Made by a program: the position numbers and the translations under genes. Of a stretch of DNA of 47,645 nucleotides, positions 2 through 46,581 are shown in pieces. Under the pieces are notes generated by a model. That model was not told the DNA's origin, searched no databases, and was given only the letters and a program-made list of their open reading frames with translations. The DNA is from Lachnospiraceae bacterium. GTDB taxonomy: Bacteria; Bacillota; Clostridia; Lachnospirales; Lachnospiraceae. The stretch's first letter is position 1. The number at the start of each line of letters is the position of its first letter. The DNA is taken from positions 1 through 47,645 of the forward strand of contig JAFUFL010000045.1 in the NCBI GenBank assembly GCA_017469935.1. The letters run 5' to 3'.

Positions 2-823
2 GTCTGCAATATTGCAGGCGACCTTCTACTCGTCGCCGGATTTCATTTGGGTGCGGCCGGCGCCGCGCTTGCGACCGTCTCCTCGCAGACTATCAGTGTC
101 CTGATTTCTCTCCTTGTGTTGCGCCGAAGGACGCTTCCCTTCACCTTTACGCGCAAAGATATCCGCATCGACCGCCCTTTCGCGGCCCGGATCGCTCGCT
201 TTGGAGCTCCGATCGCCTTACAGGACCTGTTGGTCGGAATATCTTTCCTTGTAGTGCTTGCGATCGTCAACACCCTCGGTCTCATCGCTTCTGCCGGTGT
301 AGGCGTCGCCGAAAAAGTCTGTGCCTTCATTATGCTCATTCCCTCTGCTTTCATGCAGGCTATGAGCGCCTACGTGGCGCAGAACCATGGCGCCGGAAAA
401 TCAGATCGCGCCATACAGGGCTTAAAGATTGCGATCCTTTTGTCGACAGCCTTTGGGGCGGTGATGTTTTGGCTGTCCTTCTTTCATGGGGACCTCCTGT
501 GCGGCATCTTCTCCGGTGACCCTGAAGTTGTCGTTGCCGGCTTCGACTACCTCAAAGCTTACGGGATCGACTGCCTCCTGACTTGCTTCCTCTTCTGCTT
601 TATCGGCTTTTACAACGGTCTCGGCTGCACGGGCTTCGTAATGATTCAGGGAATCGCTGCGGCCTTCCTGATCCGCATTCCGGTCGCCTACGTCATGTGC
701 CGCATGACCGGCCGACTATTCTACATCGGCCTCGGCATCCCTTGCTCGACCATTTTCCAGATCCTCGCCTGCTTCTTATATTTGAGGAAGGTCCGCCTTA
801 GACCGACCTCTAGGGTGGCTTGA
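2..823 (+). CDS. MATE-family multidrug/Na+ (H+) antiporter, 3' part
   Basis: The reading frame is open from the first bases, so this is the C-terminal part of a MATE efflux protein (DinF/NorM-like) whose start lies outside the window. About 270 hydrophobic residues with repeated membrane helices are visible, including the segment GLIASAGVGVAEKV and a basic loop (RRRTLPFTFTRKDIRIDR). MATE proteins export cationic drugs or metabolites across the cytoplasmic membrane. The same protein segment recurs unchanged at the right end of the window, with only synonymous DNA changes. The last residues (PTSRVA) and the TGA stop are encoded by the first unit of a 17-bp intergenic repeat array, so the original C-terminus may have been altered by repeat growth. 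Family call is firm; substrate is unknown. Confidence 0.88.
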   Translation, partial: VCNIAGDLLLVAGFHLGAAGAALATVSSQTISVLISLLVLRRRTLPFTFTRKDIRIDRPFAARIARFGAPIALQDLLVGISFLVVLAIVNTLGLIASAGVGVAEKVCAFIMLIPSAFMQAMSAYVAQNHGAGKSDRAIQGLKIAILLSTAFGAVMFWLSFFHGDLLCGIFSGDPEVVVAGFDYLKAYGIDCLLTCFLFCFIGFYNGLGCTGFVMIQGIAAAFLIRIPVAYVMCRMTGRLFYIGLGIPCSTIFQILACFLYLRKVRLRPTSRVA

Positions 824-871
824 CCTCTGGGGTGCCTCGACCTCTGGGGTACCTCGACCTCTGGGGTAGTT
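804..871 (+). repeat. Tandem array of ACCTCTRGGGT repeat, 4 units of 17 bp
   Basis: Four consecutive 17-bp units, each of the form YGACCTCTRGGGTNNCT, start inside the 3' end of the MATE gene. The TGA stop of that gene is formed at the junction of units 1 and 2. Units differ mainly in the spacer and in one purine of the core. Confidence 0.9.
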
Positions 872-926
872 TTTCGCGCTCCATCAGCCCCCCGGTCAAC
901 TCCCCTCCCTGGCCGCTCAGGCAAGC

Positions 927-1634
927 TCAGCCTTCCGGCCCACTCACCCTGGCCTTAGAAAACGGGCACCTCGCGCCAATGCACTGATTGTTCAAATGCG
1001 AAAACTCACACACGATCGGCATCAGCTCCATCACTATGCCAAAATTCTCTTCCACAAACCGCACCGCCTCCGTAACAGCCAAAAAAGAGTCCCTTTTACA
1101 ACATCTCGGCCCGCCAACCGTTCCGATTGCGTCCAGAGATCTCGCAGTCATTCTATTTGACAGCCCGAAGTTCGCTCCTCCAAGCGGCGTAGAGCCAGAA
1201 ATAATGGAGATAAAAATCCCGCTGCTGATCCCCGCTCCGCAGGCGCCCCAAAATCCGCAGACTCCTCCCGGCACTCCCTTTCCCCGATTGATCATTTCTT
1301 TTAACGCACTGTCAAGATCGATTTCTCCCCCTGCGTTCTTGTAAGCCGTCAGCAAAGCCGAACCGACCATCACATGATGCTCCGGTCCGTGCATATGGCA
1401 GAAGGATTGTTTCATCATCTTCTCAATGATCTCCACCGGATTTCTGGACTTTTCCGTTTTGCAGATCCCGATTATGGCGTCCAGCCCCCGCATATGGCAT
1501 TCATTGCAGACAAAATGTCCATTTATACATCTCGTCTTGCTCAGCATTTTCTTATGGCAGATCGCACACTCCATCGGCACATCAATTTCCAGATATTCCA
1601 AAGGAGCATTACAAATCAGGCATTCATCATTCAT
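927..1634 (-). CDS. DUF5714 domain protein with N-terminal Cys-rich zinc-binding-like module
   Basis: The 235-residue product starts with several CxxC/CxxxxC pairs (CLIC, CAIC, CNEC) that look like a small zinc ribbon. The body carries motifs typical of DUF5714: MHGPEHHVMVGSAL, GVCGFWGACGAGISSG, and a late GPRCCKR. The domain has no established function; relatives occur in clostridia and methanogens, so a redox or metal role is only a guess. An upstream in-frame ATG at 1652 sits one base from GGAG, whereas the ATG at 1634 (MNDECL) has better-spaced purine-rich sequence before it and is preferred. The CAAAATA motif overlaps the upstream region. The gene stands alone on the minus strand between two repeat arrays. 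Confidence 0.7.
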   Translation of the reverse strand: MNDECLICNAPLEYLEIDVPMECAICHKKMLSKTRCINGHFVCNECHMRGLDAIIGICKTEKSRNPVEIIEKMMKQSFCHMHGPEHHVMVGSALLTAYKNAGGEIDLDSALKEMINRGKGVPGGVCGFWGACGAGISSGIFISIISGSTPLGGANFGLSNRMTARSLDAIGTVGGPRCCKRDSFLAVTEAVRFVEENFGIVMELMPIVCEFSHLNNQCIGARCPFSKARVSGPEG

Positions 1635-1704
1635 TTTACTTCCATTCTCCAAAATATGCTAAAATCTTAATGGATTAACAGTTCCCAATATAATGTAAAC
1701 AAGT

Positions 1705-1872: not shown

Positions 1873-1876
1873 TCAC

Positions 1877-2920: not shown

Positions 2921-3013
2921 CGACCTTTAGGGTACCTCGACCTCAGAGGTACCTCGACCTCTAGGGTATCTCGACCTCCAGGGTACCTCGACCTCTAGGG
3001 TACCTCGACCTCA
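2921..3013 (+). repeat. Tandem 17-bp repeat array, 5.5 units
   Basis: Five perfect-period 17-bp units (consensus CGACCTYYAGGGTACCT) run from 2921 to 3005. A truncated sixth unit beginning CGACCTCA follows. Its TCA (3011-3013) is the complement of the TGA stop of the minus-strand gene next to it. One unit carries the perfect palindrome ACCTCAGAGGT. Confidence 0.92.
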
Positions 3014-6719: not shown

Positions 6720-6780
6720 GCAGATTTTTGAAAGGCTGATGTGTTTATTATGTGAATTTCTTTTTTAAATCTGTAAAACC

Positions 6781-6958
6781 GACCTTTAGGGTATTCACTA
6801 CCCTGAAGGTCTCTCATCAAAAATCAAAATCGACCTCTAGGGTATCCACTACCCTGAAGGTCTCTCATCACAAATCGACCTCCAGGGTGTCCACTACCCT
6901 GAAGGTCTCTCATCAAAAATCAAAATCGACCTCTAGGGTATCCACTACCCTAAAGGTC
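6781..6958. repeat. Array of four tandem hairpins built from inverted ACCT..GGGT repeats
   Basis: Four hairpins, at 6781-6811, 6832-6862, 6877-6907 and 6928-6958, each pair GACCTYYAGGGTR with TACCCTRAAGGTC across a five-base loop (TTCAC or TCCAC). Near-identical linkers rich in A (TCTCATCAAAAATC type) separate them, giving a period of 45-51 bases. The array lies 24 bases beyond the stop codon of the M48-like gene. Confidence 0.92.
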
Positions 6959-7643: not shown

Positions 7644-7667
7644 TGTTAGGCTAGATGTCAGTGAAGC
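7644..7667 (+). repeat. Left terminal inverted repeat of the IS3 element
   Basis: It aligns with the complement of 9459-9482 at 17 of 24 positions, including the block TGTCAGT. The exact outer boundary is uncertain by a few bases because no target duplication fixes it. Confidence 0.7.
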
Positions 7668-7717
7668 AAAACAGTTTTTGTGGTAGGATTAGGGTACCAC
7701 AGGAAGGAGCTTCACAG

Positions 7718-8215
7718 ATGAATTACAGTCCAGAATACAAGGAGGCAATCCTTCGCCGGATGCTTCCTCCGAACAACGAATCCATCACCAAGATCGCAAA
7801 AGAGGAAGGGCTCTCAGAACAGACACTCCGCAACTGGCGGGATAAAGCCAGAAAGGAAGGGTACGCTGCTCCTGGAAAGGATGCTGCTCCTGACGACTGG
7901 AGCACACAGGATAAATTCCTTATTGTTGTAGAAACCGCCAGCCTTAACGAGACCGAGCTGGCTGAGTATGCCCGTAAAAAAGGCCTGTACGTTGAACAGA
8001 TCAAGGCCTGGAAAGATGCCTGCATGAATGCCAACGGAGGCATCGCAAAGGAAGCTGCACGACTCAACCGTGAACTAAAGGATTCCCAAAAAGAGCGTAA
8101 GAAACTCGAAAAGGAACTCCAGCGAAAGGAGAAAGCCCTGGCGGAAGCTGCGGCCCTGCTCGTGTTGTCAAAAAAAGCAAATGCGATCTGGGGGGATCCA
8201 GAGGACGGTCAATAA
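7718..8215 (+). CDS. IS3-family transposase OrfA (HTH protein)
   Basis: The 165-residue product begins with a helix-turn-helix of the IS3 OrfA type (NYSPEYKEAILRRML followed by ITKIAKEEGLSEQTLRNWRDKA) and ends in a long coiled coil (ELKDSQKERKKLEKELQRKE). It binds the IS ends and regulates transposition. The start at 7718 is chosen because GGAAGGAG lies eight bases upstream; an open extension to 7655 lacks such a site. A programmed -1 frameshift near the C-terminus at AAAAAAAG would fuse it to OrfB. Confidence 0.88.
   Translation: MNYSPEYKEAILRRMLPPNNESITKIAKEEGLSEQTLRNWRDKARKEGYAAPGKDAAPDDWSTQDKFLIVVETASLNETELAEYARKKGLYVEQIKAWKDACMNANGGIAKEAARLNRELKDSQKERKKLEKELQRKEKALAEAAALLVLSKKANAIWGDPEDGQ
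8170..8177 (+). promoter_or_regulatory. Programmed -1 ribosomal frameshift site (A7G)
   Basis: The orfA frame reads TCA AAA AAA GCA, a canonical A-AAA-AAA-G slippery heptamer. Slipping back one base enters a frame that is open without stops to the end of orfB at 9303, as in other IS3 elements that make an OrfAB fusion. Confidence 0.85.
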
Positions 8216-9303
8216 GCGCCGCAGATCGCAGTGCGGCTATACAGCTTATTGACGAGGCCGTAAATAACGGAGCACGGTTATCAAAAGCCTGTGAACGACT
8301 CGGGATCACCGAACGTACTTATTACAGGTGGCAGTCATTGAACAAGGAACACCATTCTTATGAGGACCGCCGTGCATATGCTGACCATTCTGATCCGGTA
8401 AATAAGCTGACACCGGAAGAACGGCAGAAAGTGATCAACACCGTCAATGAGGAGCGTTTTGCAAGCATGCCTCCGTGCGAGATCGTTCCTGCCCTGGCAG
8501 ACGAAGGCGAGTATATTGCTTCAGAATCAACGTTTTACCGCATCCTTCGTGAGGAGAAGATGCAAAATCATCGCGGACGGAGTCAGGAACCCGGGAAGCA
8601 AGGAAAACCCACCTCCTATGTTGCAACGGCCCCTAATCAGGTTTGGACTTGGGACATCACATATCTCAGGGGCCCGGTAAAGGGATTCTTCTTCTACTTA
8701 TATCTGATTATCGACCTCTTCAGCCGTGACATTGTTGGCTGGGAGGTTTGGGAAGAAGAGTCAGCTGAGCATGCCAGCGTACTGATCAGGCGTACATGCC
8801 TTGCACAGGGAAGACTGACAACAATGCCCCTTGTTCTTCATTCAGATAATGGAAGTCCAATGAAAGGCACCACTATGCTGGAAACGCTGTATGCGCTGGG
8901 GATAACCCCATCCAACAGCAGACCACGAGTCAGCAACGACAACCCATACTCCGAATCCCTGTTCAAGACGCTCAAGTATCGGCCAAACTACCAGCCAAAG
9001 GGCTTCGAAAGTCTTGAAGAAGCACGTGAGTGGTGCAGCATCTTCGTACATTGGTACAGATACGAGCATCATCACAGCGGCATTAAATTCCTCACTCCGG
9101 CTGACCGCCATGCGGGGAAAAGCGAGGAGATCCTTGCAAAACGTGCGAAAGTATACGAATCTGCAAAAGCCGCTCATCCGGAACGCTGGAATGGACGTGA
9201 CACTCGTAACTGGAGTAACATCGAAGAGGTATACCTGAATCCGGACAAAAAATATGAAGTAACAGAAACCGATGGTAATAGCCAGGAAGCAAAAGCTTCA
9301 TAA
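8176..9303 (+). CDS. IS3-family transposase OrfB (DDE integrase), expressed as OrfAB fusion
   Basis: The frame is open from the slippery site. It shows the HTH_21-like segment LGITERTYYRWQSL, then the rve integrase core with the three acidic catalytic residues in WDITYL, HSDNG and YSESLFKTLK. The C-terminal HWYRYEHHHSGI motif is typical of IS3 OrfB. It cuts and joins IS ends. No good independent start with a ribosome site is visible; a TTG at 8338 is possible but would remove the HTH, so production through frameshifting is most likely. The frame is intact, so the element may be active. Confidence 0.88.
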   Translation, partial: SKCDLGGSRGRSISAADRSAAIQLIDEAVNNGARLSKACERLGITERTYYRWQSLNKEHHSYEDRRAYADHSDPVNKLTPEERQKVINTVNEERFASMPPCEIVPALADEGEYIASESTFYRILREEKMQNHRGRSQEPGKQGKPTSYVATAPNQVWTWDITYLRGPVKGFFFYLYLIIDLFSRDIVGWEVWEEESAEHASVLIRRTCLAQGRLTTMPLVLHSDNGSPMKGTTMLETLYALGITPSNSRPRVSNDNPYSESLFKTLKYRPNYQPKGFESLEEAREWCSIFVHWYRYEHHHSGIKFLTPADRHAGKSEEILAKRAKVYESAKAAHPERWNGRDTRNWSNIEEVYLNPDKKYEVTETDGNSQEAKAS

Positions 9304-9482: not shown

Positions 9483-9580
9483 ATTAGCGTTTATTTATGG
9501 GAAAAACTGGGGTTTTTCGAGATGAATTTAATCGTTAGGAAATGGCGGAAAAGATGTTTGAAACTGTGAATAGTAACCCG

Positions 9581-9591
9581 ACCTCTAGGGT
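9581..9591 (+). repeat. Single ACCTCTAGGGT repeat unit
   Basis: One isolated core lies between the IS right end and the nuclease gene, about 70 bases before the start codon. The rest of the 9304-9658 gap is IS tail, the IS end, and sequence without other recognisable features. Confidence 0.75.
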
Positions 9592-9658
9592 ATGTACATA
9601 CAAATGCACACCCCGTTTTGTACACTATTCTCAAGAGCCAAAACAGAGAGGAGCCCCC

Positions 9659-10918
9659 ATGTACCCACCCATCCATACAAGGCCGCAGGAAACATATACC
9701 TTCGACCGCCTCAAAATGCTATGGGATCGTTACCCGCAGCACCATAGAATGAGTACTTTCGCCACACTCGACGAACTTCTCGAAGAGCACGAATCCTATC
9801 AAAAGGATTTTGACGAACTCCGCGAGGAGTATATAGAAGGCCATTATGATCGATTTCTCGTACAATTATCCTGGTCAGATCTTTCCTACCGCCATGCAAC
9901 CATGAAGCTGATCGAACGGGCAGCTGCAAATGCCGAAACCGGCCCCGACGCCGTCCCGCGCTCCAACCCATATGTGGACGCCTTCATGGCCCAGTTCGCC
10001 GATCTTGACACGGACCGCAAAGCCTGCTTCCTGTTTCCCGAGAGCTTCGTCTCACAATTTTTTGTCATAGCGGAAGTCTGTAAAAAGGCAGAAATCTTCA
10101 AACCTGTCCGCAGCCTCTTCCCGGACGAAGAGAAGGTCCACTATCTGGCCGTCTTTGACAAAAATGACATGGACACCGTCCTTTTGATGTTCCACCTGCT
10201 CTACACGAACACTTCGCAGGAGGTTTTCGGCGGCTATTCCCTGTACGACTATTCGCTGCCCTGGTACCACGATCACCTGTGGGAAGGCGGAACTGTGCTC
10301 CGCTCTCCCTATCTCCCCGATCGCCTGGCAAAATATCAAAGGAACCTCCCGTTTCACCACAACCCGGTCAAAACAGTCCACGTCAGACGCAATATCGATC
10401 ACATCCTGCAGTGCGGATACTTTACCTCAGAGCTCGAATTCTTCCTGAGCCTGACCAAGGTCATCATGCCCTTCTTTCAGTGGTGGTACACTGACCTGGC
10501 CCTCTACGAGGAGAAAGACGGCCTCCGCACAAACTGGCGCCTGGCCCGAACTAAGATCAGGACCAAACTCACCGCCGAGGACGTGATCCGCCCCAAATGG
10601 AAACACGAACTGACCCTGTTCCACGCAGTACGCGGCCGCCATCCCGATACGCTCTACCAATACCGCCCCGAATGGCTCGGCCGCCAAAGCCTGGACCTGT
10701 ATATCCCGTCCCTCAGGACCGCGATCGAATACCAGGGCGTCCAACACTACCTTCCCGTCGAATTCTTCGGCGGAGAGGAGGCGCTAGCGCAGCGCAAACT
10801 TTTAGACAGTCAAAAAAGAGAACTATGCATCGCTAACCAGGTTCGCCTGATCGAATGGCCTTACAGCGTCGACCCGACCGAAGCCAACATACAAAAAATG
10901 CTCTCCGGAGAAACTTGA
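9659..10918 (+). CDS. Uncharacterised protein with C-terminal PD-(D/E)XK-type nuclease-like domain
   Basis: The 419-residue protein has an N-terminal 300-residue helical region without a recognised domain, then a compact C-terminal segment: LDLYIPSLRTAIEYQGVQHY, a spacer with EFFGG, then RKLLDSQKRELCIANQVRLIEWPY. The D...ExQ pattern, a downstream Lys-containing helix and a final strand resemble restriction-endonuclease-like folds of the Vsr/DUF2726 kind, so a DNA endonuclease or repair role is plausible. It starts at 9659, where GAGGAG precedes the ATG; the frame extends upstream without a ribosome site. Its stop codon lies within the first arm of its own terminator. No methylase neighbour is visible. 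Confidence 0.6.
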   Translation: MYPPIHTRPQETYTFDRLKMLWDRYPQHHRMSTFATLDELLEEHESYQKDFDELREEYIEGHYDRFLVQLSWSDLSYRHATMKLIERAAANAETGPDAVPRSNPYVDAFMAQFADLDTDRKACFLFPESFVSQFFVIAEVCKKAEIFKPVRSLFPDEEKVHYLAVFDKNDMDTVLLMFHLLYTNTSQEVFGGYSLYDYSLPWYHDHLWEGGTVLRSPYLPDRLAKYQRNLPFHHNPVKTVHVRRNIDHILQCGYFTSELEFFLSLTKVIMPFFQWWYTDLALYEEKDGLRTNWRLARTKIRTKLTAEDVIRPKWKHELTLFHAVRGRHPDTLYQYRPEWLGRQSLDLYIPSLRTAIEYQGVQHYLPVEFFGGEEALAQRKLLDSQKRELCIANQVRLIEWPYSVDPTEANIQKMLSGET

Positions 10919-10950
10919 AATTCTCAAGTTTCTCCGGAGAGCTTGGTTTT
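10900..10950 (+). terminator. Rho-independent terminator overlapping the nuclease stop codon
   Basis: A perfect 18-bp stem (arms 10901-10918 and 10924-10941, extended by one G-C pair) with a five-base loop is followed by a T-rich stretch. The first arm is coding sequence and includes the TGA stop. Confidence 0.9.
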
Positions 10951-10954
10951 GGCC

Positions 10955-11140
10955 AGTTGAACTACCCTAGAGGTGTCTCTATGTCTGCAGTTGAACTACC
11001 CTAGAGGTGTCTCTATGTCTGTATGGAAACCACCCTAAAGGTATCTGGAAACCACCCTAAAGGTATCTGTATACCCTACCCTAGGTGTCTCTATACCCTA
11101 AAGGTGTCTCTATCATCTGTATACCCTAAAGGTGTCTCTA
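10955..11140 (-). repeat. Array of ACCCTARAGGT repeats
   Basis: About seven cores in ACCCTAAAGGT orientation are separated by short variable linkers such as TGTCTCTATGTCTG. The last linker's CTA at 11138-11140 is the complement of the TAG stop of the PTS gene. The array fills the gap between two convergent genes. Confidence 0.9.
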
Positions 11141-12676
11141 TGAAAGCATCTTTCTCAACTCATCCGCCACTTTCTGCACCTTGAGCCCAATCACGACCTG
11201 CACACTGCCCGCCCCCGGTCTGACCACGGCCTTAGCACCGGCTGCCTTTAGCATGCCTTCATTGACCGCATCCGAGTCTTTCACTTCAACACGGAGCCTT
11301 GTGACGCAGTTGTCCAGCGTCTGAATGTTCTCCCTGCCGCCGAGTCCATCCAGAATTGCATTCAAATTGAAACCTTCTACTACGATATCTTCTTTGCCAT
11401 TCTCCCCGGCGTTCTCTATTTTGTCCGTCTTCGCAGCTGCAGCCGAAGCTGTCGCCGCTTTTGCAGACTTTTCTTCATCTGCGCCGCTGCTCTCCTCCCT
11501 TCCGGGTGTTTTGAGATCAAGCGCCGTGATCATCACCCTGAAGACCAGGTAGAATACCACGAACGCAGCCAACCCTAAAGGTATGATCATCCAAGTTTTC
11601 TGCGCCGCCGGGAGCGAGGCCGAGAATACCAGATCCGTCGCACCTGCAGAAAAAGCGAACCCTGCCCGAAACCCGCTCAGCACAGTTATGTAACTGAAAA
11701 TTCCGTACAAAATTGCATAGGCAAAATATAGAACCGGCGAAGCGAACATGAACATGAATTCAAAAGGTTCCGTAATGCCGCAGACAAAAGCACAGATTGC
11801 GGTGGAAGCAACCATTCCGATGACCTGCTTCCGTTTCTCCTTAGGGGCACAGTGAACAATGGCGAGCGCCGCCCCGGGAACGCCGAACATCATGCAAGGG
11901 AAGAATCCCGACATGTACATTCCGAGCGACCACGACACATCCGCGGAAGTTTCCCCGGCCCAGAAATGCGTGATATCGCCCAGCCCGATCGTCTCAAACC
12001 AAAAAACATTGTTAAGCGCATGATGCAGCCCGACCGGAATCAGCAGTCGGTTCAAAAAAGCGTAAACGCCCGCACCGATGTTGCCCATCCCGACGATCGT
12101 AAGTCCCATTTTAACCAGTGCGCCGAACAGCGTCGGCCATACTACCATCAAAATAGCGGAAACCACCACAGATGCGATGCCGGATGCAATAACCGTGCTG
12201 CGCTTACCGCTGAAGAAGGACAGCCACTCGGGAAGCGACGTATCCTTAAACCGATTGTAGCTCGAAGCTCCGATCAATCCGGCCAGGATGCCGATGAAGG
12301 GATTCTCTATTTTGCCAAATGCAAGAAGAGTCTCCTCGCCGACAGAAAACAGCTCCAGAAACGGTTTCACATTGTCAGGCTTAAGCAACGTCGTAATCAT
12401 GAGCCAGGAAGCCAGCGCAGCGAGCGCGGACGTGCCGTCTCTCTCGTCTGCCATTCCGACGCCGACGCCCACTGCAAACAGAATTGCGATGTTGTCGATC
12501 AGTGCGCTGCCCGCCTTCACCAGAAACATTCCCAGCATCGGTATAAAACCGGCTGCTTCGCCGCCCTGCATCGTAGAGGGGCACATAAGATACCCCAGAC
12601 CCATCAATATGCCGCACAGCGGCAGACAGGCTACCGGCAGCATGATTGCCTTGCCAAGCTTTTGCAAAAATTTCAT
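11138..12676 (-). CDS. nagE: PTS sugar transporter EIICB, N-acetylglucosamine type
   Basis: The product (512 residues) carries a membrane EIIC domain of the glucose/GlcNAc superfamily. Visible features are the N-terminal MLPVACLPLCGILMGLGYL, the segment RLLIPVGLHHALNNVFWFE and the substrate-region motif GITEPFEFMFMF. An Ala/Lys-rich linker leads to an EIIB domain with the phosphorylated Cys in TLDNCVTRLRVEVKD. No EIIA domain is fused. It imports and phosphorylates an amino sugar or glucose using PEP-derived phosphate; the LGGRENI segment favours the GlcNAc branch but glucose cannot be excluded. AGGAGGGAAAT precedes the ATG. A repeat core is read in frame at 11572-11582. The gene is monocistronic between repeat arrays. 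Confidence 0.85.
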   Translation of the reverse strand: MKFLQKLGKAIMLPVACLPLCGILMGLGYLMCPSTMQGGEAAGFIPMLGMFLVKAGSALIDNIAILFAVGVGVGMADERDGTSALAALASWLMITTLLKPDNVKPFLELFSVGEETLLAFGKIENPFIGILAGLIGASSYNRFKDTSLPEWLSFFSGKRSTVIASGIASVVVSAILMVVWPTLFGALVKMGLTIVGMGNIGAGVYAFLNRLLIPVGLHHALNNVFWFETIGLGDITHFWAGETSADVSWSLGMYMSGFFPCMMFGVPGAALAIVHCAPKEKRKQVIGMVASTAICAFVCGITEPFEFMFMFASPVLYFAYAILYGIFSYITVLSGFRAGFAFSAGATDLVFSASLPAAQKTWMIIPLGLAAFVVFYLVFRVMITALDLKTPGREESSGADEEKSAKAATASAAAAKTDKIENAGENGKEDIVVEGFNLNAILDGLGGRENIQTLDNCVTRLRVEVKDSDAVNEGMLKAAGAKAVVRPGAGSVQVVIGLKVQKVADELRKMLS

Positions 12677-12724
12677 ATTTCCCTCCTCATAACCTTCGTA
12701 TACTGTACATCCCCTGCTATCATA

Positions 12725-12806
12725 ACCTCAGAGGTATCTTTTTCTTTAAAGACCTCTAAGGTGTCTCCCCCTCCTCTCAAAGACTCCCTTTGAAGACCTC
12801 TAAGGT
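12725..12806. repeat. Three ACCTCWRAGGT repeats between the PTS gene and the small-protein gene
   Basis: Cores at 12725-12735 (ACCTCAGAGGT), about 12752 and 12796-12806 (ACCTCTAAGGT) lie upstream of the PTS gene and just past the stop of the 95-residue gene. A CTTTAAAG/AAAGACTC-rich spacer separates them. Confidence 0.8.
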
Positions 12807-12826
12807 ATCTAAGCTACCTAGCCGCC

Positions 12827-13114
12827 CTATCCTCGTTCCAGTTCAAATAAAAAAATCTCATAGGCATCATCTTCTCCATCTAACAATGGCGAATTTTCTC
12901 CGCCCCCATTCGTGCTGCGCCTCATGGAAGCATAAGCAAACTCACCATATTCAATGATATCCATATCATAAAGAGGAAGACCGACTTCTGTACTAATCCT
13001 GCAAAACTCCCCTAAAGAGTTAGGATGGTCCCTGGTTGCCAGCAAAGCCTCTTTCAGCGCCGGATCACGAAGCGCCCTTTTCCTGAGTGCTTCAAGAGTT
13101 TCCGCAACATTCAT
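12827..13114 (-). CDS. Small conserved protein, Nif11-like
   Basis: The 95-residue product has an N-terminal helical pattern (ALRDPALKEALLAT, then SLGEFCRISTEVGLPLY) that resembles the Nif11 leader-peptide fold used by some RiPP precursors. A distinctive MRRSTNGGGENSPLL segment and an acidic tail follow. No modification enzyme or transporter is adjacent, and the Gly-rich motif sits late, so a peptide-precursor role is only a possibility. GAAGGAG lies about eight bases before the ATG. Repeats flank both sides. Confidence 0.55.
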   Translation of the reverse strand: MNVAETLEALRKRALRDPALKEALLATRDHPNSLGEFCRISTEVGLPLYDMDIIEYGEFAYASMRRSTNGGGENSPLLDGEDDAYEIFLFELERG

Positions 13115-13171
13115 AGATTTTTCTCCTTCAGATTTATTGGTCTTCTTAAATTATACATCAAACATCAAATA

Positions 13172-13285
13172 ACCCTAAAGCTCCTCAATTACTATCTCCC
13201 CATTACCCCAAAGGTCGAGTCACCCCGGAGGTCAAGTCAGCTCATCCCATTACCCCAAAGGTCGAGTCACCCCAAAGGTCGAGTC
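13172..13285 (-). repeat. Array of ACCCCAAAGGTCGAGTC repeats
   Basis: Four good copies of ACCCC(A/G)(A/G)AGGTC(G/A)AGTC plus one degenerate core sit between two divergent genes. The block of two units with the ATTACCCC prefix is itself duplicated (about 13191 and 13250). Confidence 0.87.
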
Positions 13286-13391
13286 AGCTCCCGTTTTTAT
13301 CCTTGAACCCCCAAAAAATCCGTGATAACATATAAAAATCAGATCTGACGCCGTCTTTCTTCTTAATGGCAGGCGCAGCTTCTCATTTCAT

Positions 13392-13425
13392 AGTGCCTGC
13401 GCTTAGCTATCAGCTGTAAGGCACT
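13392..13425. repeat. Hairpin upstream of the transposase gene, candidate left element end
   Basis: AGTGCCT (13392-13398) pairs with AGGCACT (13419-13425), with an inner AGCT/AGCT pairing. The segment AGTGCCTGCGCTTAG is repeated as AGTGCCTGCTTAG directly after the transposase stop (14313), so these copies may mark the ends of the transposase unit. Confidence 0.55.
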
Positions 13426-13562
13426 CGATTTCTTAAAGTTTCCTGCAGGCTTCTCTGCAAAACTTCAACACTAACACTATTTTCTACAATTCACAAAAGG
13501 TTGTCTTTATTTCTGAATATTGTACAACTGTCTACAAAAGAAAGGTTAAAAAGGTCACGTCT

Positions 13563-14312
13563 ATGGCAACTCCCAAACGCAAAATCAGCCCTCTTGGCAT
13601 TTACCACATCACTGTCCGCGGTATCAACAAACAGGATATCTTTGAGAATGCAGCTGACTTCGAAAAGTATTTGGAAATCCTTCACAAATATGAAACAATC
13701 TGCGATTTCAAGCTCCTCGGCTACTGCCTGATGTCAAATCACGTCCACCTCGTCATAAAAGTCGGTAAAATGCCTCTCGGCCGCATTTTCCAGCACATCT
13801 CTCCAAGCTATGTGTATTACTACAACCAAAAATATGCGCGCGTCGGCAGTCTGTTCCAGTCCCCTTTCAAGAGCAGGCCGATCAACAGCGAGAGCCAGCT
13901 CCTCACAGTCATCCGTTATGTACACCAGAATCCGGTCAAAGCTGGAATCTGCAAGAAGCCAAAAGATTACAAATACAGCAGCTATCCCAATTACTACGCC
14001 AATCAACTCATTGACGCCAGTTTTGTGCAATCCTTCGTGAGCAGGAAAGATTTTTTCAGCTTCAATTGTGCCCCTAACAACGACCACTGCCTGGATATCG
14101 ACGACGAAAAGCCTCGTCTCAATGATGAGCGTGCCAAAGAAATTATGTATAACATTTCCGGTTGCAGTAACGTGACGCAATTCCAAGCATTGGAGAAAGA
14201 CAAGCGTGACCGGGCACTACGGGAAATGTGGAAAGCCGGTATTTCGATGAACCGGGCCAACAGAATGACAGGCATCTCCTACGGCATAATCAGAAAAGCC
14301 GTTAAGTTCTAG
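13563..14312 (+). CDS. REP-associated tyrosine transposase-like protein (Y1/HUH family, RAYT-type)
   Basis: The product is 249 residues, a normal length for this family. It shows the Y1_Tnp/RAYT features: N-terminal GIYHITVRGINKQDIF, the HUH metal-binding motif in MSNHVHLVIKV (about residues 57-67), the segment VYYYNQKYARVGSLFQSPFKS with candidate nucleophile tyrosines, and HQNPVKAGICKKPKDYKYSS. A C-terminal helix-turn-helix-like part (MNRANRMTGISYGIIRKAV) follows. Relatives cut single-stranded DNA at hairpins and are tied to the spread of short palindromic REP elements. It is intact, with AAAGGTCA upstream of the ATG, and lies among arrays of short palindromic repeats. Whether it acts on those repeats is inference. 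Confidence 0.85.
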   Translation: MATPKRKISPLGIYHITVRGINKQDIFENAADFEKYLEILHKYETICDFKLLGYCLMSNHVHLVIKVGKMPLGRIFQHISPSYVYYYNQKYARVGSLFQSPFKSRPINSESQLLTVIRYVHQNPVKAGICKKPKDYKYSSYPNYYANQLIDASFVQSFVSRKDFFSFNCAPNNDHCLDIDDEKPRLNDERAKEIMYNISGCSNVTQFQALEKDKRDRALREMWKAGISMNRANRMTGISYGIIRKAVKF

Positions 14313-14341
14313 AGTGCCTGCTTAGTTAATATTTTGCCAAA
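14313..14341 (+). repeat. Candidate right end of the transposase unit with a CAAAATA palindrome
   Basis: Directly after the stop codon lies AGTGCCTGCTTAG, matching the upstream hairpin region. It is followed by TATTTTGCCAAAATA, a perfect palindrome made of the heptamer that recurs throughout the window. Confidence 0.5.
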
Positions 14342-14363
14342 ATACTGACCTCCTGGAAGATTG

Positions 14364-14390
14364 AGCGAGAGATCTAACAGATCGCTCGCT
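14364..14390. repeat. Strong 12-bp hairpin downstream of the transposase
   Basis: AGCGAG-A-GATCT pairs with AGATC-G-CTCGCT across an AAC loop with one mismatch. No T-run follows, so it is not a standard terminator. It could be a recognition hairpin for the neighbouring transposase. Confidence 0.65.
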
Positions 14391-14448
14391 ATTAACCATG
14401 CCTGCTCATGAGTTTCCCCTCAACGCCAAGGCCTCTCCCAACCTCTAA

Positions 14449-14531
14449 ACCTCTAGGGTGGCTCTTCCCCCTCCCCCGGCCTTCCTTTCCCCGACCTTTA
14501 GGGTCCTTGTTTGATCAAGACCTCTAGGGTA
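14449..14531 (+). repeat. Three ACCTYTAGGGT repeats
   Basis: Cores at 14449-14459, 14494-14504 and 14521-14531 lie between the transposase and the terminator of the convergent lipoprotein gene, separated by C-rich spacer. Confidence 0.85.
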
Positions 14532-14555
14532 ATTCACCAGGTAATTCGCCAAACA

Positions 14556-14586
14556 AAAAGCACCCCAGCCAACAAGCCGGGGCACT
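14556..14586 (-). terminator. Rho-independent terminator of the lipoprotein gene
   Basis: On the minus strand GTGCCCCGGC pairs with GCTGGGGTGC (G-U pairs allowed) and is followed by five T. Confidence 0.85.
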
Positions 14587-14600
14587 TCTTCTAAACCTTA

Positions 14601-15482
14601 TTACTGTGCAAGAATTGCCGTAATATGCGGGTTCGGTCCGTTATACCAGTACAGGAAACCTTCCATATCGATAACATCACCGACGTGAAGATCTTCAACT
14701 GCCTTATAGACGTCAGTATCAGGTCCGCAGAGATAAGACTCTACAGTGAACGTATAAGTCTGTCCATTGAGTGAAACGTTGAAATACAGATCAGTGTCAG
14801 CTCCTCTTTCTCCGGTTCCTTCACTATTATAAGTGAAAGCAACTTCCTTACCGTCTTTGTCCAGAATAGGGTTACCATCTTTATCGGTCCTTGCTTCCAC
14901 AGTCATGCCCTTGAAAACAACCTTCTTATTCATCTTGCTCGCAAGCTCATCAGTTCCAAGAAGCGCTGTAACGTCTTCTGCCTCAGCAATGAAATCGCCA
15001 TCAACGAACATCCATGCTTCAATATCAACGACTTCAATTTCACCGGACCATTCAGACTTATATCCCTTGACCTTAATTGTTTTGCCGGTTTCCATCAGCT
15101 CATATTCCTTCTCCGTGCAAGGAAGCTGGTACAGGAAATAAGCGCCGCCCTTATCATCCTGCAGGTAAACATTGGCGGTTCCTGCACCATCCTGCACATA
15201 ATAGGACTGCTTGCCCTGAATCGAGCCCTGAATAATGACTTCCGAGTCTGTTGCTGCTGCAATATAATCCTCATAGCTCATAGGCTCCTCGGGAATATTA
15301 GCCTCAGTCTCCTCTGTCTCCATGACAGTGCTCTCCACGGTTTCTGCCGTCTCTTCTGCAGGATTCGCCTCTTCCGTCTGCGTTTCAGCTGCAGGGGTAG
15401 AATTGCTGCTGTTGCCACCGCCGCATGCTACTGCCGCCAGCATCATTGCACCGGTCAGCATAATGACAATTGCTTTTTTCAT
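14601..15482 (-). CDS. Secreted lipoprotein with OB-fold-like domains
   Basis: The 293-residue product starts MKKAIVIMLTGAMMLAAVAC, a lipoprotein signal peptide with the acylated Cys in AVAC. An acidic Thr/Glu linker (residues 25-65) follows. The body contains two regions resembling OB-fold repeats: SEVIIQGSIQGKQSYYVQDG with VIIQG and VKGYKSEW, and a second with VVFKGMTVEA. OB-fold lipoproteins of this type bind nucleic acid or other ligands at the surface, but the ligand is unknown. The start at 15482 has GGAGG five bases upstream; the longer in-frame start lacks one. A TATAAT box lies about 110 bases upstream. Confidence 0.7.
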   Translation of the reverse strand: MKKAIVIMLTGAMMLAAVACGGGNSSNSTPAAETQTEEANPAEETAETVESTVMETEETEANIPEEPMSYEDYIAAATDSEVIIQGSIQGKQSYYVQDGAGTANVYLQDDKGGAYFLYQLPCTEKEYELMETGKTIKVKGYKSEWSGEIEVVDIEAWMFVDGDFIAEAEDVTALLGTDELASKMNKKVVFKGMTVEARTDKDGNPILDKDGKEVAFTYNSEGTGERGADTDLYFNVSLNGQTYTFTVESYLCGPDTDVYKAVEDLHVGDVIDMEGFLYWYNGPNPHITAILAQ

Positions 15483-15650
15483 AACGTCCTCCATGTTAAG
15501 TACAATTCGTCCTCCGCCGCCACAGTTGTAAGCGGCATTGGCCACAAGTGTTACTATGATTTAGAAAGAAACATCTTCCGAAACCACTTCTATTATAGCG
15601 AAGATCTGTCAAAATAGTACATTAATTTACGGGTACTTGACCCTCCGCCC

Positions 15651-15764
15651 ACCCTTAAGGTGTTCCTTCCCTCTGCATACACCTCCAGGGTCATGCACAC
15701 CTCTAAGGTCATGCCCCCGGTCACCCACACCTCCAGGGTCACCCACTCCAGGGTCACCCACTCT
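15651..15764 (+). repeat. Array of ACCTCYARGGT repeats
   Basis: About five cores with TCATGCAC- or TCACCCAC-type linkers run right up to the TAG stop (complement CTA, 15763-15765) of the solute-binding protein gene. One core is a truncated copy lacking the ACC. Confidence 0.88.
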
Positions 15765-18242: not shown

Positions 18243-18255
18243 CTTGATCCCTCCT

Positions 18256-19143: not shown

Positions 19144-19162
19144 TATGCGCCGTCCTCCTTCC

Positions 19163-20344: not shown

Positions 20345-20470
20345 GGACACCTTCAGGGTATCGGACACCTTCAGGGTATCGGACACCTTCAGGGTAGTCA
20401 GACACCTTCAGGGTACCGGACACCTCCAGGGTACCGGACACCTCCAGGGTACCGGACACCTCCAGGGTCA
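20345..20470 (+). repeat. Tandem 18-bp repeat array, 7 units
   Basis: Seven units of GGACACCTYCAGGGTAYC follow each other with an 18-bp period (one 19). The last unit ends in TCA, which is the complement of the TGA stop of the FRG-domain gene. Units fall into a TTC and a TCC subtype that are clustered, indicating local duplication. Confidence 0.93.
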
Positions 20471-23286: not shown

Positions 23287-23349
23287 ACCCCGAAGGTCTC
23301 ACGTTTTTCTGGTCCCGACACCCTGGAGGTCTCGAGATACCCTAAAGGT
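23287..23349 (-). repeat. Three ACCCYRRAGGT repeats
   Basis: Cores at 23287-23297, about 23319-23329 and 23339-23349 sit between the hydrolase promoter region and the pgi terminator. This is the last array before a repeat-poor stretch of about 16 kb. Confidence 0.83.
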
Positions 23350-29960: not shown

Positions 29961-30012
29961 GGATTTTTACAGGCCTTTCTTAAATTGAAAATGGCGGAGC
30001 GCTTCGCGCCGC

Positions 30013-30099
30013 TCAAGGGTTGATATCGACCCTTGCGCCGGTCAGGGATTGATATCGACCCTCGCGCCGGTCAGGGATTGATATCGACCCTCGCGCCGG
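30013..30099 (-). repeat. 29-bp tandem repeat that duplicates the 3' end of the secreted-protein gene
   Basis: Three 29-bp units (30013-30041, 30042-30070, 30071-30099) each encode, on the minus strand, the same C-terminal segment LTGARVDINP and a TGA stop. The copy at 30071 is the functional gene end; the other two lie downstream as untranslated copies. The outermost has two or three substitutions. Confidence 0.92.
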
Positions 30100-30682
30100 T
30101 CAGGTCATCCTTGCCCATGCCGCAGACGTCTACGGTGTACCACCCGCAGGTGGCGGTGTGCGTGGTCCCTCCGGCATCGCGGATCGACTCGTAGAGGCGG
30201 ATCGTGAAAGTTCCGTCGCCGTTGTCCTTGGCGTCCGCATCAGGGGGATAGAAATCGTTGCTCTCGTAATAATAGTTTTGGGCCAGTTTGCACAGTTCCT
30301 CAGCCGTGTACACTTTGCTGTAGACGGTCAGGTCGATCTTGCTGCCGCTGCCGGCGTCCGTGCCTTTCCCGAATTCGTCGACATTGTACCTCGCGTCGCA
30401 GTCGGTACCGGAGTCGGTACCCGCGCCGGTCCCGTTCTCCCACAGGCTGATCTGCCAGGTTCCGTCCTTCTGCTCTTCGACCACCGCGGCAACCGGATAG
30501 ACTTTGCCGGCGCCGGTGCGCATGTAGTAATATTTTGCCATGCATCCCAGCTCCGTGTCCGTGTAGACCCTCTGCCCGGACTCCTCCGCCTTGGCGGCCT
30601 GCGCGCTCATGCCGGCCCCGCCGATGCTCAGTATACCGAGCAGAAACGCGGCGGCAATAATAAACAGTCTCTTTGACTTCAT
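30071..30682 (-). CDS. Secreted protein with duplicated domain, function unknown
   Basis: The 203-residue product has a signal peptide (LFIIAAAFLLGILSIGGAG, cleavage likely after AQA). The mature part contains two related modules of about 75 residues. Each starts with YT(D/A)(T/E)EL...A..YY, continues with DGTW/DGTF and ISLWEN/IRLYES, and ends in YNVDEFGKGTD or YTVDVCGMGKD. The fold is unknown; similar tandem modules are seen in clostridial exported proteins. Its transcript starts at a clear promoter and passes an intrinsic terminator before the gene, so expression is probably attenuated. GGAAAGGAAAC precedes the ATG. Confidence 0.6.
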   Translation of the reverse strand: MKSKRLFIIAAAFLLGILSIGGAGMSAQAAKAEESGQRVYTDTELGCMAKYYYMRTGAGKVYPVAAVVEEQKDGTWQISLWENGTGAGTDSGTDCDARYNVDEFGKGTDAGSGSKIDLTVYSKVYTAEELCKLAQNYYYESNDFYPPDADAKDNGDGTFTIRLYESIRDAGGTTHTATCGWYTVDVCGMGKDDLTGARVDINP

Positions 30683-39603: not shown

Positions 39604-39747
39604 CTACCTCAAAGGTCTCCATTTCTCTGGTGCCTCTTGCCGGCCAATACCTTAGAGGTCGTGCCACTACCTCGTGCCACTACCTCAGAGGTGTCCGTTT
39701 CTCAGACGCACCTTGCCGGCCACTACCTCAAAGGTCTCCATTTCTCA
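39604..39747 (-). repeat. Array of ACCTYARAGGT repeats with duplicated blocks
   Basis: Five cores (ACCTCAAAGGT, ACCTTAGAGGT, ACCTCAGAGGT and others) are embedded in longer duplicated blocks (CACTACCTCAAAGGTCTCC plus a GCCGGCCA segment, seen twice). The array lies inside the queuosine operon between queE and folE, and queE's TGA is the complement of TCA at its edge. Confidence 0.88.
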
Positions 39748-40949: not shown

Positions 40950-41073
40950 ACCTCAAAGGTCATATACTACCCTAAAGGTGTCTTCCCAAAATCAATCGAA
41001 CTACCCCCAATCGAACTACCCTAAAGGTGTCGATACCTCAAAGGTGTCTTTCCCAACGAGATACCCTAAAGGT
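40950..41073 (-). repeat. Array of ACCCTAAAGGT/ACCTCAAAGGT repeats upstream of queD
   Basis: Five cores with linkers such as GTCTTTCCCAACGA and AATCGAACT occupy the stretch between an intrinsic terminator and queD. The first core overlaps the sequence just before the queD ribosome binding site. Confidence 0.87.
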
Positions 41074-43647: not shown

Positions 43648-43739
43648 GTTTTTGGCGGCTGTTCTCCGGCCTCCGGCGGCGGCAAGCCTGCTGCCGTCCC
43701 TTTCGAAGATGCCGGTCGAGGCTGCCGTGCCTGTCGTCA

Positions 43740-46304
43740 CTATTTTGACTGCTGTGGTGCCACAGTGATCGTGTACTCGCCGAATCCGCTGACCTGCGTC
43801 AGCTGCAGCTGATACCCCTGGCCTTCGGTCAGATCCGCTTCAATATAACTACCACCTTCAAGGTCATCCGCGCCGTCGATCCGCTCTCCCAGGGAACTGT
43901 AAAGATACATCTTCACGCGGCGGCCGCTCTCCATATTTCCGACTGTGAACCGATATCTCCCGGTCCGGGCTGCCTTAAAGGTGTAGGACTTTTTCTGCCC
44001 GGTATACGTCAATGCGCCGCATATGACTGACCTGCCGGTGACATCTTCGGAGACCTCCGGGCTTCCGATGGAAAAGGTATACTCGACCTCCTTGTCCGAA
44101 TTCAGGTCTTTGGAATTCGAGACTTCGATCCGGTACCTTCTTCCCTCCGTCAGTTCGACGGCAAAGCCGTCCCCGTCCCTGATCTCTCCGCCGCCCACCC
44201 TAGAGGTCCTGTCATAATCTGACACCTTTAGGGTATCGTCATCCGCGGCCCCATCTTCATCCGACACCTTCAGGGTATTGCCATCCCTGCCATCCCTGTC
44301 TTCATAAACCTCCAGCTTCACCGGCAAATCCTCCGGATCGCTCTTCACATCAAACCGATATGTGCCCGCTTTCTCCGGCACATAAGTATACCCGTTGTAC
44401 TGTCCCTTGTACTCAATACTGTCGCTCACGCTGTTATAGGCCGAAACATCGACCACCGCCTTATTCTGCCCAAGAAGCAGGACAAAACTGCCCTCGCCTT
44501 CTGCCGCGGAGACCTCCAGGGTATATGTCTTGTCCTTCTCCAGCTCACAATACACCCTGCTTCCGTCGACAAGTCCGGTTCCCCTCGCGACCACCGCTTC
44601 GTCCGGCCCCTTGACAAGGAGCTGCACCTTCAGCGCGCTCTCCATTCTGGTAAATTCCCACACACAGCTCCCGCTCCGTGCCGCTTTCACGGTAAACGTC
44701 TTCTTTTTATTCTTCCCCTTCAATTCGCCCGGATACTCCGCATAGGTGATCTTTTTCGCACTGTATTTCAGTGCCTTGGGGGCTGACCACTCCTCGCTGT
44801 CCGCAATCTGCTCCAGCAGCACGCCCAGCTCCTCGGAAGCATAAATCTCCGAGGCGTCCTCCACAAGGCCTTTTGCTTCCTCGAAGTCTCCGCCGTCGAC
44901 TCTTGAGAGGGCCTGCCTTGTGATATGGTCCACAAAGTCCTCCCGAAGCGCCGCGATCTTCTCTCCCAGCTCCTCGTCCTCTCCGAGCACTTCCATTCCC
45001 GCATCCAGCCGGCCAAAAGCCCCCGCAAAGTCCCCCTCAGCCGCCAGCCCGTCGGCCTCCGCGATGGCGCTGCTGCGCACCAGGGAGCGATATTTTGACA
45101 GACAGGCGGCGCGCCCTTCCGTCAGCTCCTCATTTTCGGGCAGAAGTACCAGCCCAGCGTCGATCCGGTCGATGGCCTCGAGGCATTCTTCCTCCGACTC
45201 CGCATCGTCACCGCCCGCTGCCAAAAGATTGACACACCTGCCGATCTTCTCCTGCGCCTGCGAATACATCGCCGACGACTCCTCCACGCGCAGCAAAACC
45301 TCGATGGCCTCCGGGAACTTGTGCGCCTCCATAAGTTCGGTGCCCTCCGCGATCGTCGCGGAAGAGACCTCGTAGCGCTCCACCTCATCCAACGCGCTCT
45401 GCGCCAGCTGCGAGAGTTCTTTCTTATCCGTCCCCGCCAAAATATTCAAATACGCGCACGCATCCTCATACCCGCAGTTTCCGTCCATATAGCTGTTACG
45501 GACGTCTTCGACGGCCCCCCGCAGCTGCGGGTCCGCCTCCTCCTCCCGGGCTTCATGCCCGCAGATCTCCTCGTTGTAAATGGCCACCGCTTCCTTATAA
45601 TTCGAAGCGCCCAGCTTCTCCTCAAACCGCTTCACCGAAGTGTCCCGCAAAATCCACACGCCCGCCGCCGCAGCCATAATGAGCGCGGCAAGTATGATCT
45701 CCTTGATCGGGAACCTCCTGCGGCGCCTGAAGGTGACGTCCTCATCCCGGCTGCCGCCTGCCGGCTTTCTTCCGGGGCGACTTCCGACGCGACTTCCGGT
45801 GTAGCCGGCGCCGGCGCCGCCGCTGCTGCCTGCGCCGCTACGGCTGCCGCCTGCCGAATTTCTTGCGGCTCGACTTCCGGCGTGGCCGGCGGCGCTTCCT
45901 CTCCCGCTCCCGATCTGATACCTCAGAGGTCTCGCAAGCTCCCCCGCGCGCAGCTCCTGTGAGGGCTGCGCCGGCTCGCATCCGTCAACCTTCAGGCGGA
46001 TCTCAAGCCCGTCCACGCCGGCAGGGTCGTCATCCTCCACTCCCACCTGCTCGGCCAACACCTTTAGGGTGTCTACTGCAAACAGCCTCACGCCGTACTC
46101 GTCATAACACTCCGCCGTCATGGGCAGCGTCTCACCGTTTTTAAGCTTCCAGAACAGCTCCTCCGGCACGAAATACTTCACCGTCTCCGGATTCCTTGTG
46201 CAGAGCACCCGGATGTTGTTGATCAGGTTCTGGTCCCACTCGATCACAAACAGATGCGCAATATTCGGTTCATCGAGTCTTGAGATCAGGCATTTCTGCT
46301 TCAT
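43740..46304 (-). CDS. Membrane-anchored protein with helical repeats and C-terminal pre-peptidase-C-like beta domains
   Basis: The product (854 residues) has an unknown N-terminal domain of about 125 residues and a Gly/Ser/Arg-rich linker. A RRRRR stop-transfer-like cluster and one membrane helix (IILAALIMAAAAGVWIL, about residue 210) follow. Next is a helical TPR-like region (KRFEEKLGASNYKEAVAIYN, EAHKFPEAIEVLLRV). The last 320 residues resemble two or three PPC-type beta-sandwiches (FTVKAARSGSCVWEFT; YTYVPEKAGTYRFDV; YTFKAARTGRYRFTV). It is probably a surface or sensor protein of unknown role. At least six ACCT..GGGT repeat cores are read within it, giving TLKVSD twice, TLEVS, TSRV and DTLKV. 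Confidence 0.65.
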   Translation of the reverse strand: MKQKCLISRLDEPNIAHLFVIEWDQNLINNIRVLCTRNPETVKYFVPEELFWKLKNGETLPMTAECYDEYGVRLFAVDTLKVLAEQVGVEDDDPAGVDGLEIRLKVDGCEPAQPSQELRAGELARPLRYQIGSGRGSAAGHAGSRAARNSAGGSRSGAGSSGGAGAGYTGSRVGSRPGRKPAGGSRDEDVTFRRRRRFPIKEIILAALIMAAAAGVWILRDTSVKRFEEKLGASNYKEAVAIYNEEICGHEAREEEADPQLRGAVEDVRNSYMDGNCGYEDACAYLNILAGTDKKELSQLAQSALDEVERYEVSSATIAEGTELMEAHKFPEAIEVLLRVEESSAMYSQAQEKIGRCVNLLAAGGDDAESEEECLEAIDRIDAGLVLLPENEELTEGRAACLSKYRSLVRSSAIAEADGLAAEGDFAGAFGRLDAGMEVLGEDEELGEKIAALREDFVDHITRQALSRVDGGDFEEAKGLVEDASEIYASEELGVLLEQIADSEEWSAPKALKYSAKKITYAEYPGELKGKNKKKTFTVKAARSGSCVWEFTRMESALKVQLLVKGPDEAVVARGTGLVDGSRVYCELEKDKTYTLEVSAAEGEGSFVLLLGQNKAVVDVSAYNSVSDSIEYKGQYNGYTYVPEKAGTYRFDVKSDPEDLPVKLEVYEDRDGRDGNTLKVSDEDGAADDDTLKVSDYDRTSRVGGGEIRDGDGFAVELTEGRRYRIEVSNSKDLNSDKEVEYTFSIGSPEVSEDVTGRSVICGALTYTGQKKSYTFKAARTGRYRFTVGNMESGRRVKMYLYSSLGERIDGADDLEGGSYIEADLTEGQGYQLQLTQVSGFGEYTITVAPQQSK
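44197..44276 (-). repeat. Three ACCT..GGGT repeats inside a coding region
   Basis: Cores at 44197-44207, 44224-44234 and 44266-44276 are translated in the acidic linker between two beta domains. Two give the peptide TLKVSD, the third, in the other orientation, gives TSRV. Total length keeps the frame open. Further single cores in the same gene lie at 44512-44522, 45920-45930 and 46060-46070. Confidence 0.88.
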
Positions 46305-46331
46305 TTGTTTCTCGGTTCCTTTTTTGTTCTA

Positions 46332-46449
46332 ACACCTTTTGTTCCAACACCTTTAAGGTATCCCAACACCTTTTAGGTGTCTGTTTTCCAACACCTTTGT
46401 TCTACCACCTTTAAGGTGCCTGTTTTGTTATGGCACCTTTAAGATCTCT
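46332..46449 (+). repeat. Array of AACACCTTTAAGGT repeats
   Basis: About six cores, several truncated to ACACCTTT, lie upstream of the 854-residue protein gene with TTGTTCY or CTGTTTT linkers. The subtype ACCTTTAAGGT is a perfect palindrome. A further isolated core (ACCCTAAAGGT) sits at 46534-46544; the stretch between is AT-rich with nothing recognised. Confidence 0.83.
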
Positions 46450-46581
46450 ATTTTCACTATTCATTTCAAAAAATCCCATCAGGAAAATCTCTCTCACATT
46501 ACTATATCAAAAATTTGCCAAAAGATACAAACTACCCTAAAGGTCTACCGCCCCCCGGCCCCCGCCGCTTCCCCCCGCCGC

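Follow-up and report, generated by a model that had tools for sequence, protein, structure and literature searches.

RAYT-linked repeats and the present locus

The closest described systems are the REP/REPIN sequences with their RAYT transposases (REPtrons; PMC2817692, PMC3116915) and the TIRYTs. In the passages cited of Nunvar 2010 (PMC2817692), RAYTs are flanked by REPs, the number of REPs tracks the presence of the RAYT, and the two coevolve. REPs gathered near rayt are noted in the same passages for three marine gammaproteobacteria and the betaproteobacterium Thauera; therefore, local islands of such repeats are not new in kind. According to the parts of PMC8266576 drawn on here, TnpAREP cuts single-stranded REP at CT, the GTAG is important, the TnpAREP proteins studied bind hairpins, and the spread of REP-like repeats is poorly understood. 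For the genes of subclass 2.1, the sections cited of Quentin 2018 (PMC6006769) report automatic and manual searches in which no REP-like sequences were found nearby, and give Y---NP as common to all class 2 TnpAY1. TIRYTs with GGGGWSAS terminal repeats are described in the corresponding part of Di Nocera 2013 (PMC3733652), together with some moderately abundant TIR families, many in dimers or clusters.

The window is a whole contig of 47,645 nucleotides (C61) from a Lachnospiraceae bacterium, the genome of which (G000) comprises 3.55 Mb in 111 contigs. It carries many copies of the core ACCTYYRGGGT on both sides of a RAYT gene at 13563-14312, and the system is best read as RAYT-linked repeats of a new variety. 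As in the passages on REP/REPIN-RAYT systems (PMC2817692, PMC3116915), the RAYT is flanked, the number of repeats is linked to the RAYT, the two vary together, and inverted pairs occur; RAYT-associated repeats in the wide sense are thus present. In contrast to those systems, the repeats have an 11-bp core and no GT[AG]G foot, the direct arrays have no excess hairpin potential, residues E100 and R104 of E. coli TnpAREP are S and N in the window RAYT, and the host belongs to the Lachnospiraceae. Since the foot is absent, the direct arrays show no excess of hairpins and the contact residues are changed, the units are not canonical REPs. The original prediction had not recognised the family as a described REP; this agrees with the lack of GTAG and with the hairpin-free direct arrays, but linkage to a RAYT, otherwise a mark of REPs, was present.

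With TIRYTs, or subclass 2.1 TnpAY1 (RAYT group 1), as characterised in the sections cited above, the locus has in common the Y1 core followed by a C-terminal extension, the HuH and Y---NP motifs and repeats without GTAG; HTH profiles match the extension in more distant relatives. By its length, its NP motif and its C-terminal region, the window RAYT would fall into subclass 2.1/TIRYT. It differs from subclass 2.1 as reported in the part cited of PMC6006769 in that tens to hundreds of copies per genome are found here, in islands, and from the TIRYTs in the sequence of the core, which departs from GGGGWSAS; the G-type core (G at position 7) ends in GGGGT. Among the publications listed in a literature search, no description of an ACCTYYRGGGT family was found, and of 29 containing the letters of the core, none of the 20 listed was, by its title, on bacterial repeats.

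The repeat family in the window

The family is abundant, as had been predicted. With at most one mismatch, ACCTYYRGGGT has 90 matches in the window, compared with a mean of 3.60 (sd 2.07, maximum 9) in shuffled sequences; 59 matches are exact, and in the whole genome 331 exact cores (151+180) stand against 5 (4+1) for the reversed pattern. The exact cores form 17 clusters, close to the 16 or so first claimed, and a looser definition gives 78 sites in 24 groups. On a hand-made gene map, 51 of the 59 exact cores are intergenic, the intergenic share of the window being 12.2%. The claim that the repeats fill intergenic space therefore holds for these, but not for the remaining eight, which lie within ORFs, five of them in one common codon frame of ORF 43740-46304. 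No exact core is present between 23.4 and 40.9 kb.

The clusters differ in their architecture. A 17-bp period, described previously, was confirmed in the array at 804-867 (plus strand, four cores, the first overlapping the end of the upstream ORF) and in that at 2921-3012 (five cores), and an 18-bp period, with one step of 19 bp, in that at 20345-20468 (plus strand, seven cores). Six cores in mixed orientation at 1705-1853 include the inverted pair already seen (1722 on the minus and 1751 on the plus strand). The hairpin array noted at 6781 corresponds to eight cores in strictly alternating orientation, i.e. four inverted pairs, at 6782-6957. Around the RAYT gene, four cores lie upstream at 13205-13279 (minus strand) and three downstream at 14449-14530 (plus strand). 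Further clusters occur at 12725-12806 (three cores of variant spelling), 15651-15739 (four), 23287-23349 (three, minus strand) and 46349-46544 (three). At 39606-39735 (four variant cores) and 40950-41073 (five cores), both on the minus strand, the corresponding gaps of contig G008:C120 have none. The cores in frame in ORF 43740-46304 are four exact ones at 44197-44522 and a fifth at 46060; they read as TLKV, TLEV or TSRV peptides and may partly be a natural protein motif. This ORF had no NCBIfam match.

Folding of single-stranded DNA, compared with shuffled sequences, gave z -3.92 for the inverted-pair stretch 6775-6850 and no excess structure for the three direct arrays (z -0.40, -0.78 and -0.14). 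The motif GT[AG]G was found 0-2 nt 5' of the palindrome at 5 of 77 window cores and 3 of 80 on contig C42 of the same genome, and 5' of the core at none of the nine other loci examined; GTAG overlapping the 3' end of the core was found in 14 of 77 window cores and in 31 of 50 and 37 of 55 at the loci of two relatives. Palindromic arms around the core are fixed in some relatives (L088, L090), and the complementarity of the arms around single cores is about that expected from independence at most of 17 loci and clearly higher in L085. Core positions 5 and 7 showed no covariation in the window (27 TA, 22 CA, 6 CG, 4 TG). A cleavage point was sought in truncated cores, and the prefix ACCTCTG was about 4-fold enriched in the islands; since this excess comes partly from the ACCTCTGAGG variant, no cleavage site is claimed.

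Other features of the window were recorded. An insertion element with two ORFs inside the island (7655-9303; Pfam HTH_Tnp_1 and rve) is, in our own reading, of IS3 type, and a tandem repeat of another unit (29-bp period, 3.5 copies) lies at 30004-30104. The window gave no Rfam match at gathering scores and no tRNA in a tRNA scan, and a plasmid search returned 14 records, every one below 60% identity. The contig ends, 1-365 and 47281-47645, are near-identical with few differences and by eye resemble parts of a MATE-type transporter gene; they could be paralogues or mark an assembly break. CAAAATA occurs 49 times in the window, where a crude two-base-block shuffle gave a mean of 4 and a Markov expectation is exceeded just 1.5-fold, and is about twice as common there as in far stretches of contig G007:C12. 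The yeast Zap1 site ACCTTNAAGGT is similar to the core, which we take to be coincidence.

The RAYT and its repeats across genomes

The gene at 13563-14312 (plus strand) encodes a RAYT-like Y1/HUH transposase of 249 amino acids with H60-x-H62 and Y119...N123P124, and H60, H62, Y119, N123 and P124 are invariant across the 22 aligned members. It matches Pfam Y1_Tnp (3.5e-12) and NCBIfam REP_Tyr_transpos (2.3e-21), yet at 76.2 bits the latter does not reach the cut-off of 80. Searching the PDB with a profile built from six relatives gave TnpArep 4er8 (2.5e-4) as the sole chain at E<=0.1; as a single sequence the window RAYT found no PDB chain at E<=1, and none of the PHROGs matched it. Lachnospiraceae bacterium UBA4260 is the closest named relative found by way of the RAYT protein, with 90% identity. 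Clear HTH matches occur in 3 of the 22 members, all of the outgroup (L145, L144, L061), with best values of 7.7e-7 for HTH_7, 6.6e-5 for HTH_23 and 0.009 for HTH_38; those within the subfamily are weak (HTH_psq 0.0099 in L087, HTH_54 0.086 in the window). In the profile alignment to 4er8, the GTAG-contact residues listed in the section cited of PMC6006769, W94, Q95, E100, H101 and R104 of E. coli TnpAREP, correspond to F, Q, S, R and N in the window RAYT; Q95 is thus retained, and R at 101 is also present in some REP-associated subclasses described there. A candidate promoter of the pattern TTGAAC ... TGATAACAT was identified by eye at 13300-13332 (plus strand), with a similar one upstream of several relatives, and was not among the sites of a promoter scan. 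The leader at 13323-13562 begins with TGATAACATA and contains a hairpin-like CTGCGG...CCGCAAAAC, both common to several RAYT genes.

The number of cores is associated with the presence of this RAYT. Among 62 genomes of the genus, the family is lineage-variable, a point that the original prediction had proposed to check: about a dozen genomes have cores far above the control, i.e. the reversed pattern. A search with the window RAYT gave matches in 27 of the 62 at E<=1e-5, and matches of at least 254 bits, defined as the subfamily, occur in twelve (G000, G007, G008, G038, G041, G045, G048, G050, G051, G052, G058 and G061) at 20 places, or 22 with two partial ones (G007:C41 and G000:C83). At least 25 cores were counted in 12 of 12 genomes with a subfamily RAYT (25 to 331, median 206.5) and in 2 of 50 without (median 5); the statistics (Fisher 4e-11, Mann-Whitney 7e-8) ignore relatedness. 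The two exceptions are G049, with 60 cores (control 6) spread over many contigs, and G035, with 25 cores (control 14), 22 of which lie within a 46-kb stretch of one contig. Neither yielded a subfamily RAYT in a genome search, and reading 80 and 60 kb of their sequence showed no convincing one. REPs without their REPtron are known in E. coli strains and are attributed to deletion of the REPtron in the part cited of PMC3733652; by analogy, both genomes are tentatively taken to be cases of RAYT loss. A search of 299 genomes of the family gave, outside the genus, no RAYT match above 44% identity.

The repeats also lie close to the RAYT genes. An exact core is present within 1 kb of 19 of the 22 subfamily places, and the other three have different repeats: ACCTTTAAGGT-like in G041, GGGTAACCC in G052:C18 and a GATCACAGCCCGGGC palindrome in G061:C23. 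Loose cores were found at 15 of 15 fetched subfamily loci (3 to 17 each) and at none of 15 loci of other Y1 transposases, and 28 further loci of other Y1 transposases of the family had no exact core. The density is 2.20 cores per kb at 0-2 kb from the RAYT, 1.94 at 2-5 kb, 1.48 at 5-10 kb and 1.08 at 10-20 kb, and then 0.22 at 20-40 kb, 0.11 at 40-80 kb, 0 at 80-160 kb and 0.07 at 160-240 kb; this profile covers 16 of the 22 places, several of them stretches rather than whole contigs, and leaves out the three places without an exact core and the short contigs G050:C113, G051:C62 and G061:C55. Of the 46 cores on contig G007:C12 (278 kb), 39 are no more than 20 kb away from the RAYT, as are 12 of the 16 clusters (binomial 8e-8 for clusters). 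The RAYT of G048:C32 is at 9 kb, and 67 of the 79 cores there come before 30 kb; on G008:C120, none of the 45 cores lies past 30 kb, out of 62 kb. Permuting the RAYT position contig by contig, on contigs selected for carrying a RAYT, gave p<0.05 on three of nine (combined p 7e-4), and G007:C41, with its RAYT fragment at the contig end, showed no proximity (p 0.57). Contig-by-contig evidence for proximity is therefore moderate. In G000, 153 of 165 A-type cores (A at position 7) are on four contigs, C61 (49), C21 (42), C83 (36) and C56 (26); C61 and C83 have a RAYT match, and C21 and C56, with 68 A-type cores between them, have none.

The spelling of the core follows the RAYT clade. In a tree built without L059 and L063, two of six outgroup rows, and in which several deeper branches are weakly supported, the window RAYT clusters with that of G007:C24 and the G007:C41 fragment, and position 7 of the core is A in 49 of 59, 37 of 44 and 35 of 42 cores on the respective contigs. 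In the sister group of G000:C42 and G007:C12, A is found in 2 of 77 and 1 of 46. Ten of the other 11 contigs counted have G in all cores except one; the exception, G000:C83, has both spellings (36 A, 24 G), and its truncated RAYT is 86% identical to that of the window. Since C61 is mainly A-type and C42 mainly G-type, two islands of one genome spell the core differently, in step with their RAYT. Repeat and RAYT thus covary in sequence, both at position 7 and in the wholly different repeats, by clade.

Gain of units, rival explanations and meaning

Units are gained and lost between relatives. Positions 9580-19926 of the window are collinear with G007:C24 at 82-96% identity, and five of the six alignment breaks between blocks are in repeat clusters. 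A lone core at 9581-9591 (plus strand) is found at the orthologous site of G007:C24 too; in the gap at 10.9-11.1 kb, which in the window holds six cores (10964-11133, minus strand), G007:C24 has fewer copies and a different core spelling with the spacer retained. Copy number changes by whole units, and spacers are specific to each array, as was proposed. In pairwise comparisons of G045, G048 and G058, which share genomes, 9 of 15, 6 of 14 and 7 of 11 indels of at least 8 bp touch the repeat footprint (7.6-7.7% of columns), and several are of whole-unit length. The clearest case of unit gain is the CTP synthase of G035 (L124:1356-3161 on contig C32; NCBIfam PyrG 4.9e-235), which has two in-frame DKLPQRS copies, each encoded by the 21-bp unit GACAAACTACCCCAGAGGTCG, where the G048 gene reads straight through. 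Around RAYTs of G045 and G048, stretches of 20 kb contain 18 and 16 copies of this unit. The neighbouring glutamate-synthase small-subunit gene of G035 (L124:41-1216) has four further repeat peptides, so that both genes contain in-frame DKxPQ[RS]S peptides; it scores 406 bits, short of the 447.7 cut-off, but on a stretch that begins within the gene. A search for empty sites gave 39 pairs, many of them small coding differences or non-orthologous matches, and just the named cases are used. At position 13033 of G008:C120, a core appears to replace an equally long piece of host sequence, a single case that was chosen because the core differs.

Since the presence, absence and spelling of the repeats follow the RAYT, it is suggested that the enzyme spreads them locally. 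The repeats are probably short recognition units of the resident Y1/HUH RAYT, gained locally, with arrays then reshaped by slippage or exchange. Each RAYT lineage would recognise its own short dyad core, and units would be gained mostly within some 20-30 kb on either side of the RAYT gene, giving each RAYT gene an island of its own. Tandem arrays could then expand and contract by slippage or by unequal exchange among neighbouring units, with local sequence taken up as spacer. The association suggests the RAYT protein as the agent; on this reading it would use and cut single-stranded DNA, recognise a short dyad and act in cis. The lack of single-strand structure in the direct arrays counts against this reading, because the TnpAREP proteins studied in the part cited of PMC8266576 bind hairpins. 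The repeats of G049 and G035, the A-type cores of C21 and C56, the mixture on C83 and the contig-wise permutation, including G007:C41, weigh on the same side. The original prediction was right about the abundance and variability of the family, but its interpretation missed the RAYT inside the repeats.

It is conceivable that the RAYT is a passenger that inserts preferentially into repeat-rich regions while the repeats spread by other means, as G049 and G035 and the repeat-rich contigs C21 and C56 would suggest. However, a passenger does not predict that core spelling tracks the RAYT clade, nor that the count stays below 25 cores in 48 of the 50 genomes lacking the subfamily, and orphan REPs, ascribed to loss of their REPtron in the part cited of PMC3733652, are already known; this explanation is therefore unlikely. 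The short dyad, the 17-18 bp phasing and the unstructured direct arrays would also suit sites, maintained by selection, at which a host protein (a regulator or one that structures the chromosome) binds the duplex. We consider this very improbable, since the cores concentrate around RAYT genes, are patchy in the genus, lie in indel-rich arrays and include the unit gained in CTP synthase.

Replication slippage acting alone on chance motifs, without any transposase, would account for the spacers common within arrays and for several whole-unit indels, and slippage is likely to be how arrays grow. It would not place one and the same 11-mer in numerous unrelated gaps close to RAYTs, nor produce a clade-specific spelling, so that it is hardly tenable as the full explanation and is the least credible of these alternatives. 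The preferred reading remains that of recognition units of the resident RAYT.

There is a hint that such islands reach beyond the genus. Beside 43 loci of other RAYTs from the genus and the family, ACCGTCCC occurs at 0.68 per kb, compared with 0.025 in control stretches taken from other genomes. At least three copies are present at 15 of the 43, and many have none. Other Lachnospiraceae RAYTs with repeats nearby are 21-44% identical, and those of two Bacteroidales/Prevotellaceae genomes 33%; in these two, palindromes centred on GGGG flank the RAYT on either side (L042, 13 in 13.6 kb; L044, 11 in 16.8 kb). These repeats beside distant RAYTs support a general rule without establishing it. That Y1 transposases of the subclass 2.1 type generally make local repeat islands, with a short GTAG-less dyad particular to each lineage, a preference for action in cis that keeps most of the spread to tens of kilobases from the gene, and in-frame entry into core enzymes, is a tentative proposal, on balance doubtful.

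The host group falls outside the coverage of three REP surveys, as far as the passages cited go. With repeats gathered at their enzyme, and at least two paralogues with matching spellings within a single genome, these islands are a natural setting in which to test whether the enzyme acts in cis and how specific its recognition is. The in-frame units of CTP synthase demonstrate that repeats of this kind can enter core proteins.
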